A DNA stretch of 64,000 nt, taken from positions 1 to 64,000 of the forward strand of contig NZ_JSVU01000010.1 in the NCBI RefSeq assembly GCF_000952855.1, in the 5' to 3' direction. Of the stretch, positions 45,003-46,141 are shown one piece after another (position 1 is the first letter of the stretch; the number at the start of each line of letters is the position of its first letter). The DNA comes from Aequorivita vladivostokensis (GTDB lineage Bacteria > Bacteroidota > Bacteroidia > Flavobacteriales > Flavobacteriaceae). Under the pieces are notes generated by a model that did no database searches, was not told the DNA's origin, and was given only the letters and a program-made list of their open reading frames with translations. A program made the translations under genes and the position numbers.

Positions 45003-45084
45003 GACGGTTTGAAACAGGACGGTTTGAAAAAAACTGGATCAATCTCCTCTCCGCCGCGGCGGAAGGTCGGGAGGGGACCGTCCT
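45003..45084. repeat. GC-rich palindromic repeat at the pyrD 3' end
   Basis: Components: a tandem GACGGTTTGAAA (45003-45014, 45018-45029); an outer inverted repeat AGGACGGT (45016-45023) with ACCGTCCT (45077-45084); and a perfect 14-bp inner palindrome TCCGCCGCGGCGGA (45050-45063) flanked by CTC/GGGAG. The element reaches into the pyrD stop codon. Composition is quite unlike the AT-rich surroundings, so an inserted repeat is likely. It may also terminate pyrD. Confidence 0.65.
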
Positions 45085-46141
45085 ACGTCCTTTTCAGTAT
45101 CGCTTTGTTTATTTGCTTAACCAACCCAGGACCTTCGTAAATAAAACCCGTATAAAGCTGCACCAAGCTTGCGCCGGCATTTAGTTTTTCCAAAGCATCT
45201 TCGGCGGAATGAATCCCACCCACGCCAATAATGGGGAATGCACGGTTGCCTTTTTCCGAAAGAAAACGAATTACATCCGTAGCTCTTTTATTTAAAGGCT
45301 TTCCACTTAAACCGCCCATTTCCTTTTTGTTTTCGGAAGTAATTCCTTCGCGGGAAATTGTGGTGTTGGTTGCAATAACACCATCAATTTTCGTGGTTTC
45401 AACAATTTCAATGATGTCCAAAAGCTGTTCATCGGTCAAATCTGGCGCTATTTTTAAAAGAATTGGTTTGCGTTTTTCTTTTGAATTATTTCTATCCTGA
45501 AGCGTTTGCAACAAATCGGTCAACGGCTTCTTTTCTTGCAAAGCGCGCAGGTTTGGCGTATTGGGTGAACTTACGTTTACCACAAAATAATCCACATAAT
45601 CAAAAAGCGCCTCAAAACAGATAATGTAGTCGTTTACGGCTTCTTCATTGGGCGTAAATTTATTCTTCCCAATATTTCCGCCTATTAAAACCCTTCGATG
45701 CAGCCTTTCCTGAGCGGAGTCGAAGGGCTCAGGATGACAATTTGCCTTCAATCTTTCAACCGCTTCTTCCACCCCGCCATTGTTAAAACCCATTCGGTTA
45801 ATAATTGCGGAATCTTCTTTCAAACGAAACAAACGCGGCTTTTCATTGCCCGGTTGGGGTTTTGGGGTGACGGTTCCTATTTCAATAAAACCGAAACCGA
45901 AATTTGAAAGTTCTTTGTAAAGCTTCGCATCTTTGTCAAAACCCGCGGCAAGCCCCACTGGGTTTGGAAATTTCAATCCAAAAAGTTCGCGCTCCAGTTT
46001 TGGGTCTTCAATTTTATAAATACTTTTAAAAATACTTCCGAAGCCAATTTTATGGAAAAACCGAATCAGTGAAAAAGTGAAATGGTGAATTTTTTCAGGA
46101 TCAAAGATGAAAAAAATGGGACGGATGATGGTTTTGTACAT
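45083..46141 (-). CDS. pyrD: Dihydroorotate dehydrogenase (quinone) with an in-frame insertion
   Basis: A 352-residue class 2 enzyme that oxidises dihydroorotate to orotate with quinone in pyrimidine synthesis. The membrane-binding N-terminus ([20 protein letters not shown]) precedes the FMN barrel with [49 protein letters not shown] (catalytic Ser) and [15 protein letters not shown]. Between VERLKAN and [11 protein letters not shown] an extra 16 residues (135-150, [16 protein letters not shown]) are encoded by an inserted palindromic repeat. The frame is preserved and the rest intact, so the enzyme is probably active. Confidence 0.93.
45692..45739 (-). repeat. 48-bp palindromic repeat inserted in frame in pyrD
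   Basis: On the minus strand the element starts TGTCATCCTGAGCCCTTCGA and ends CATCGAAGG. It contains nested inverted repeats (TCCTGAGC/GCTCAGGA and CCTTCGA/TCGAAGG). The TCATCCTGAGC...CTTCGAC core matches a dispersed intergenic repeat seen in many bacterial genomes. Its length is exactly 16 codons and it is open in the pyrD frame. Confidence 0.8.

Follow-up and report, generated by a model that had tools for sequence, protein, structure and literature searches.

TGTC-tagged palindromes nested in frame within a PyrD loop of Aequorivita vladivostokensis, with a palindrome-bracketed GIY-YIG nuclease as candidate for their mobility

The 48 bp that lengthen pyrD in Aequorivita vladivostokensis are probably a nested pair of TGTC-tagged REP-like mobile elements that entered a PyrD loop in frame, and their mobility would be linked to a nuclease. 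The window is the whole stretch of DNA analysed (64,000 nucleotides of contig NZ_JSVU01000010.1). The features are listed in Table 1. G and L numbers designate genomes and loci, respectively; "own" refers to the genome that contains the window.

Table 1. Features of pyrD and of its palindromic insert (positions are those of the window).
Feature	Positions	Strand	Basis
pyrD, class 2 (quinone) dihydroorotate dehydrogenase, 352 aa	45083..46141	-	DHO_dh 4.6e-86; NF003652 8.1e-154; E. coli 1f76
16-codon (48 bp) palindromic insert in pyrD	45692..45739	-	translation, loops of relatives, inverted repeats
Outer unit, 5' half, TGTCATCCTGAGC (TGTC tag, stem, start of apex)	45727..45739	-	compare 24-nt form in L015/L017
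Nested second palindrome, reversed, 28 nt, where the outer unit would have its GNAG apex	45699..45726	-	L007-L010 versus L015/L017
Exact family core of the inner palindrome, TGAGCGGAGTCGA	45711..45723	+	sole exact match within the window
Outer unit, 3' half, TCGAAGG	45692..45698	-	sequence and inverted-repeat search

The pyrD frame is stop-free over its 352 codons in the reading of the window, and the family model assigns its product to the quinone-dependent dihydroorotate dehydrogenases. The best named relative is A. aquimaris D-24 (98% in PyrD). PyrD has one match in its own genome (E <= 0.001) and is therefore apparently its sole PyrD. An earlier note on this DNA had placed 16 additional codons between VERLKAN and VLIGGNIGK; they are confirmed at the positions given in Table 1, and most relatives do not have them. 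As that note had also stated, the insert is a multiple of three, is free of stops and begins with TGTCATCCTGAGC. In the shortest loops among relatives, 2 residues separate N from VLIGG, so that the net gain is 14 residues. Mapping on a class 2 structure, which the note had proposed, places the extra residues shortly before GINIGK of E. coli 1f76. The AlphaFold model (mean pLDDT 71.8, below 50 at residues 134-148) has the insert between a helix (124-133) and a strand (152-157), which suggests a flexible loop. Next to pyrD, in the gap that separates it from what is presumably a LysE-like gene, the window contains an 8-bp inverted repeat, AGGACGGT/ACCGTCCT, with arms 53 nt apart (45016-45084); it is outside the palindrome family described here.

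The inverted repeats ascribed to the insert are present as two perfect 8-bp pairs (45691-45698/45720-45727 and 45708-45715/45727-45734), located inside it or at its edge. The description of a single palindromic element holds as regards the palindromes and the repeat family, but two nested elements are found, not one. The layout is TGTCATCCTGAGC, then 28 nt, then TCGAAGG. The two outer halves differ by two and one bases, respectively, from the 24-nt form found in the loop of two other genomes (G001 and G005; L015 and L017). The insert is a composite of two palindromes of one family, one inside the other, with an order of nesting deduced from sequence comparison. Its simplest history would be one insertion, followed by a second one nested in the first.

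The family was counted by its core. The window has a single occurrence of the string TGTCATCCTGAGC when up to one mismatch is allowed (0.04 expected). In the whole genome (3.27 Mb), the 12-mer start of the insert, GTCATCCTGAGC, has one exact copy and six copies with up to one mismatch (three for the reversed control). The literal 12-nt start is not abundant, since it has a single exact copy; this start was rejected as a probe of the family, and the core was used instead. The inner core, TGAGCGNAGYCGAA, has 39 copies in the own genome (reversed control, 0), grouped by us into 18 sites, and the core is present in all 28 genomes of the genus. The insert therefore belongs, as proposed, to a family dispersed elsewhere in the genome. 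The objection that the 48-mer might occur nowhere else is probably correct for the literal 48-mer; the 48-mer is a composite, however, and its core is repeated.

The unit, as derived from 269 distinct hairpins, is about 24-25 nt long: TGTC, one variable base, a covarying 4-bp stem, the apex GAGCGNAGYCGA and the complementary stem. The four stem pairs are formed in 97, 95, 94 and 93% of the hairpins (shuffle means 73, 65, 44 and 44%). All Watson-Crick types are used at two of the positions, and pairing farther out is near the shuffled level. The 12-nt apex is nearly invariant and the stem bases compensate. This covariation is strong but is not independent evidence, because the sequences are related and many of the loci were chosen for the core. 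The TGTC tag lies exactly 4 nt upstream of the 14-nt core in 158 of the 269 hairpins; it is found at other distances in 11, and scattered downstream of the core in 14. The folding energies of five example units are not clearly better than those of shuffles (z from +1.1 to -2.1). No consistent target duplication was seen by eye. Five of the six reading frames of the core are stop-free by inspection. Tolerance of extra peptide by the loop, together with these open frames of the core, would account for the retention of the insert in PyrD.

PyrD is present in 27 of the 28 genus genomes, the own genome included, and is absent from G007 (69% complete). A recognisable element occupies the loop in 12 of these 27 genomes and belongs to five sequence classes: the nested form (four genomes: own, G018, G012 and G016), the 24-nt form (two genomes), a GGTCGTT type (two genomes, and additionally, as a longer composite, G022), a form of about 50 nt (two genomes) and another form (one genome). 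Four more loops look by eye like decayed elements, decayed at most (L012, L022, L030 and L031), and eleven genomes have short or unrelated loops. The loop of L018 is, by eye, a composite element. At least nine changes between classes, according to our labels, are required on the PyrD gene tree; as support is low and some rows are misassigned, several independent events are claimed here without a number. The earlier note had considered that close relatives might all carry the same 16 residues on unrelated DNA. Instead, homologous DNA is found in the three best-scoring relatives, and the loops of other species hold either different elements or no element. The PyrD loop is a recurrent target of insertion, the form described here being common to four genomes. 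It is hardly credible that this loop is merely fast-evolving, with palindromes that arose by chance and belong to no repeat family. Its length does vary also among the eleven genomes without an element, but 10 of the 11 exact cores (GAGCGNAGYCGA) found in the 27 pyrD loci of the genus (about 4 kb each, about 107 kb in all) lie inside the loop. The same reading is contradicted by the genome-wide count of the core against its control, and by the recurrence of insertion at two other loops.

These loops belong to a ligase-associated DEXH helicase and to a GSCFA protein. That other copies might fall in coding frames had been anticipated, and in-frame interior copies are indeed found in the helicase, GSCFA, AnmK and histidine kinase genes. 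The helicase is present in 20 of the 28 genus genomes. Its loop carries a two-hairpin insert in the own genome, a decayed version of it in G008 and a different 24-nt unit in G021; the loop is native at the other 17 loci, including that of the sister genome G018. The comparison of GSCFA covers the 14 of 28 loci matched by our motif. A 24-bp unit is present twice in the own genome and in G012, and three times in G018 and G025; the unit is decayed in G008, and the loop is native in nine genomes. According to these two series, single permissive loops have been struck repeatedly. In the own genome, in-frame copies are also carried by the histidine kinase, by AnmK and by a methylase end (L180, L179 and L173, respectively). 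Native loops in relatives are documented for the helicase and GSCFA, the histidine kinase and AnmK cases being known from the own genome alone. A core match in Ddl (L151) was left out of the count, since its residues look native. In the sister genome, an in-frame unit encoding DASTALS is found in a long open frame (L413, G018 C2:304400-305500), which we take to be possibly that of a transcription-repair coupling factor. A comparison of genes reveals insertions that preserve the gene; those that break it are invisible to it.

The variation in the number of GSCFA units (two in the own genome, three in the sister genome) and the existence of tandem palindrome arrays are what would be expected if hairpin-driven slippage during replication, template switching or gene conversion between copies were responsible for the spread. 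The GIY-YIG gene described below would then be carried along as a passenger, or would serve as a guard by resolving cruciforms. This explanation is rather unlikely: unlinked loops occupied by the units are native in sister genomes.

In-frame insertion is a known kind of event, since intragenic REPs and RPEs have already been described. The comparison with the palindromic elements of Rickettsia made in the earlier note is borne out by the in-frame insertions in conserved pyrD, helicase and GSCFA genes and by the native loops of relatives. The elements considered here differ from those of Rickettsia in being found in Bacteroidota, in having units of 24-25 nt, of which several different ones occupy one loop across a genus, and in having a candidate mobility gene. 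We take G. forsetii, named below, to be the flavobacterium Gramella. In a survey of REPs, RPE-1, RPE-4 and RPE-6 are given as palindromes lying in frame in genes that likely encode functional proteins, and intragenic REPs as occupying about the same place in two recB genes of Xanthomonas (PMC3733652). The same survey describes CGTC-tagged REPs as small palindromes tagged CGTC or TGTC, often dimers and sometimes intragenic (Di Nocera 2013, PMC3733652), reports them in Bacteroidetes and names G. forsetii as CGTC-positive. There, the terminal motif of the superfamily is CGTC or TGTC/CCTC, and the stems are of 8-9 bp, almost always with AT in positions 1-2, with a loop of 4-5 (PMC3733652). The palindromes described here match this superfamily in their terminal motif (TGTC at a fixed distance in 158 of 269 hairpins). 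Unlike its members, they have four supported outer pairs whose base types vary with compensation, and an associated GIY-YIG gene. As they do not have the stem of 8-9 bp starting with AT, they are not placed in the superfamily.

REPs can be moved by a Y1 tyrosine transposase (RAYT, TnpA_REP), and it is quite improbable that the palindromes are ordinary REPs of this kind. Their hairpins are REP-like, and a Y1_Tnp match is found in 19 of the 28 genus genomes (weak in the own genome, E 8e-5). The other nine genomes have no Y1_Tnp match, however, and cores are present in all 28. The core lies within 450 bp of the centre of only 1 of 30 Y1 transposase loci, and over the whole locus (up to 3.4 kb) it is found in 4 of 30. 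In the 2013 survey, no transposase genes are associated with CGTC repeats and no tyrosine transposase is flanked by CGTC REPs (PMC3733652). RAYT was thus rejected as a partner on the adjacency of 1 in 30, despite the number of genomes that encode Y1_Tnp. One relative (G016 C1:116037-118199; L228, L246) has three Y1_Tnp genes within 2.2 kb, with equal scores (E 3.6e-29 each).

The gene found beside the palindromes encodes a GIY-YIG protein. In the own genome, the largest palindrome array (C1, 566.7-568.2 kb) contains it twice, as a protein of 103 aa. This array is missing at the same place in four relatives: a short TGTC-starting palindrome is found there in G018 and G005, and no core in G012 and G016. 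Among the matches listed for the genus, 95 GIY-YIG open frames at 90 loci (six duplicates dropped) were compared with two bracketed genes that served as the seed. Among these, the core lies within 200 bp in all 16 frames with E <= 1e-35, in 1 of 13 between 1e-35 and 1e-30 (twelve without), and in 2 of 66 above 1e-30, on one side only; the 1e-35 line was set post hoc, after the split had been seen, and the seed consists of bracketed genes. As a control, the core is found in 1 of 20 UvrC loci (2 kb). Two loci are of separate interest. L274 (G002 C1:1927270-1930864) has five tandem 82-aa GIY-YIG genes, mostly spaced by about 357 bp, without the palindrome core, and is an amplification of a different GIY-YIG subfamily. 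At L275 (G014 C82), a GIY-YIG gene bracketed by palindromes has a single in-frame TAA and is perhaps a decayed copy.

In Flavobacteriaceae, the nuclease is found at E <= 1e-20 in 84 of 249 genomes (235 genera); the own protein and the family seed share only about 48% identity. Among the best 30 family loci, 24 have a "+" core upstream of the gene within 150 bp, 27 have a "-" core downstream of it, and 23 have both. Random 300-bp windows of the same loci contain the core in 78 of 1500 cases. Of the 24 upstream cores, 22 are 8-30 bp from the start of the gene, and of the 27 downstream cores, 21 are 2-9 bp from its stop. Such tight bracketing by inverted copies recurs in many genera. A core in the expected orientation was found at neither side of L359 and L364 (2 of the 30). 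At 22 of the 30 loci, the TGTC tags of both flanks face outward; this and the close spacing resemble the ends of an element, which speaks against slippage or conversion with the gene as a passenger. The 30 loci fall into 12 groups of similar flanks, one of which has 13 members, and sequence divergence may split one shared locus into several of these groups. Because these 13 loci and seven loci of the genus share flanks, part of the association is due to common descent; movement probably contributes beside it.

The number of cores follows the gene. The median is 28 in the 54 genomes with the gene (E <= 1e-30) versus 1 in the 195 without (p=3.5e-19, kinship ignored). None of these 54 genomes has zero cores, versus 74 of the 195. 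At E <= 1e-20, 6 of the 84 nuclease-bearing genomes have zero cores (p=2e-19). Conversely, among the 165 family genomes without a match at 1e-20, 15 are rich in palindromes, with at least 20 cores (the sister genome G018 has 24), which favours a spread by slippage or conversion.

A GIY-YIG domain is recognised in the nuclease of the own genome (PF01541, 1.2e-19). Y6, Y16, G18, R26 and E63 are invariant across 44 nuclease proteins; we take the invariant Tyr, Arg and Glu residues to have the catalytic roles of GIY-YIG enzymes. The predicted fold (pLDDT 84.9) is nearest to UPF0213 (E 2.8e-6) and, more weakly, to the branched-DNA nuclease Slx1 (E 0.02). The nearest solved structures are 1zg2 and 1ywl; the likeness to the small GIY-YIG proteins of the UPF0213/YazA type is thus one of closest solved structures. 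The two YazA-type genes compared, from Radiobacillus and B. subtilis, have tRNA and rRNA methyltransferase genes as neighbours on either side and no repeats in common, whereas the subfamily considered here is bracketed by palindromes. A nuclease gene within hairpins and many solitary hairpins elsewhere recall the REPtron and its RAYT (TnpA_REP). The differences are a GIY-YIG protein instead of an HUH Y1 one, and no tyrosine transposase regularly adjacent (1 of 30).

Under the preferred explanation, nuclease-linked movement, the autonomous form would be the unit palindrome-nuclease-palindrome and the solitary palindromes would be its non-autonomous form. The putative target of the nuclease would be the hairpin or cruciform, the TGTC end, or an unoccupied target site. 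Repair of the break would then copy the short palindrome to new sites. In homing endonucleases, break repair copies their own genes. Most new copies in genes would be lost, and those in permissive loops would survive. The bracketed gene behaves as an autonomous element would, with different genomic positions (12 flank groups for 30 loci, some of which may be parts of one shared locus) and empty sites (one array, in four relatives); we infer that the nuclease mobilises the palindromes. A wider proposal, which we regard as evenly balanced, is that of a new class of minimal mobile elements: a GIY-YIG nuclease of about 105 aa within inverted TGTC hairpins would be the autonomous form of a large class of REP-like palindromes of Flavobacteriaceae, with alphaproteobacterial and cyanobacterial counterparts. 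If this is true, the nuclease is the missing mobility enzyme of the CGTC/TGTC palindromes, including those that add peptide to housekeeping proteins. The bracketed gene is a testable candidate for the spread of REPs without RAYT; for the CGTC class, the survey that defined it found no transposase (PMC3733652). Recurrent in-frame insertions would be a route to new peptide loops in conserved enzymes, and native, filled, nested and decayed sites provide a natural series. No tie between GIY-YIG genes and REP-like palindromes was found among the literature matches listed; subscription papers and preprints are outside this scope, so that the priority of the link is unproven.

Plasmid GIY-YIG loci were also compared (14 loci, chosen by taxon from overlapping lists of 26 and 18 matched records). 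Shared repeats were not found at 9 of the 14. The Sphingomonas parapaucimobilis locus (L367) shares a 13-base core only, recognised by eye. Long repeats are found on both sides at two Methylobacterium loci (L369 and L424), a Planktothrix locus (L370) and a Sinorhizobium locus (L371); these four clear cases are from alphaproteobacteria and a cyanobacterium. The repeats of Methylobacterium, Planktothrix and Sinorhizobium are other palindromic families and may extend the association beyond Bacteroidota.
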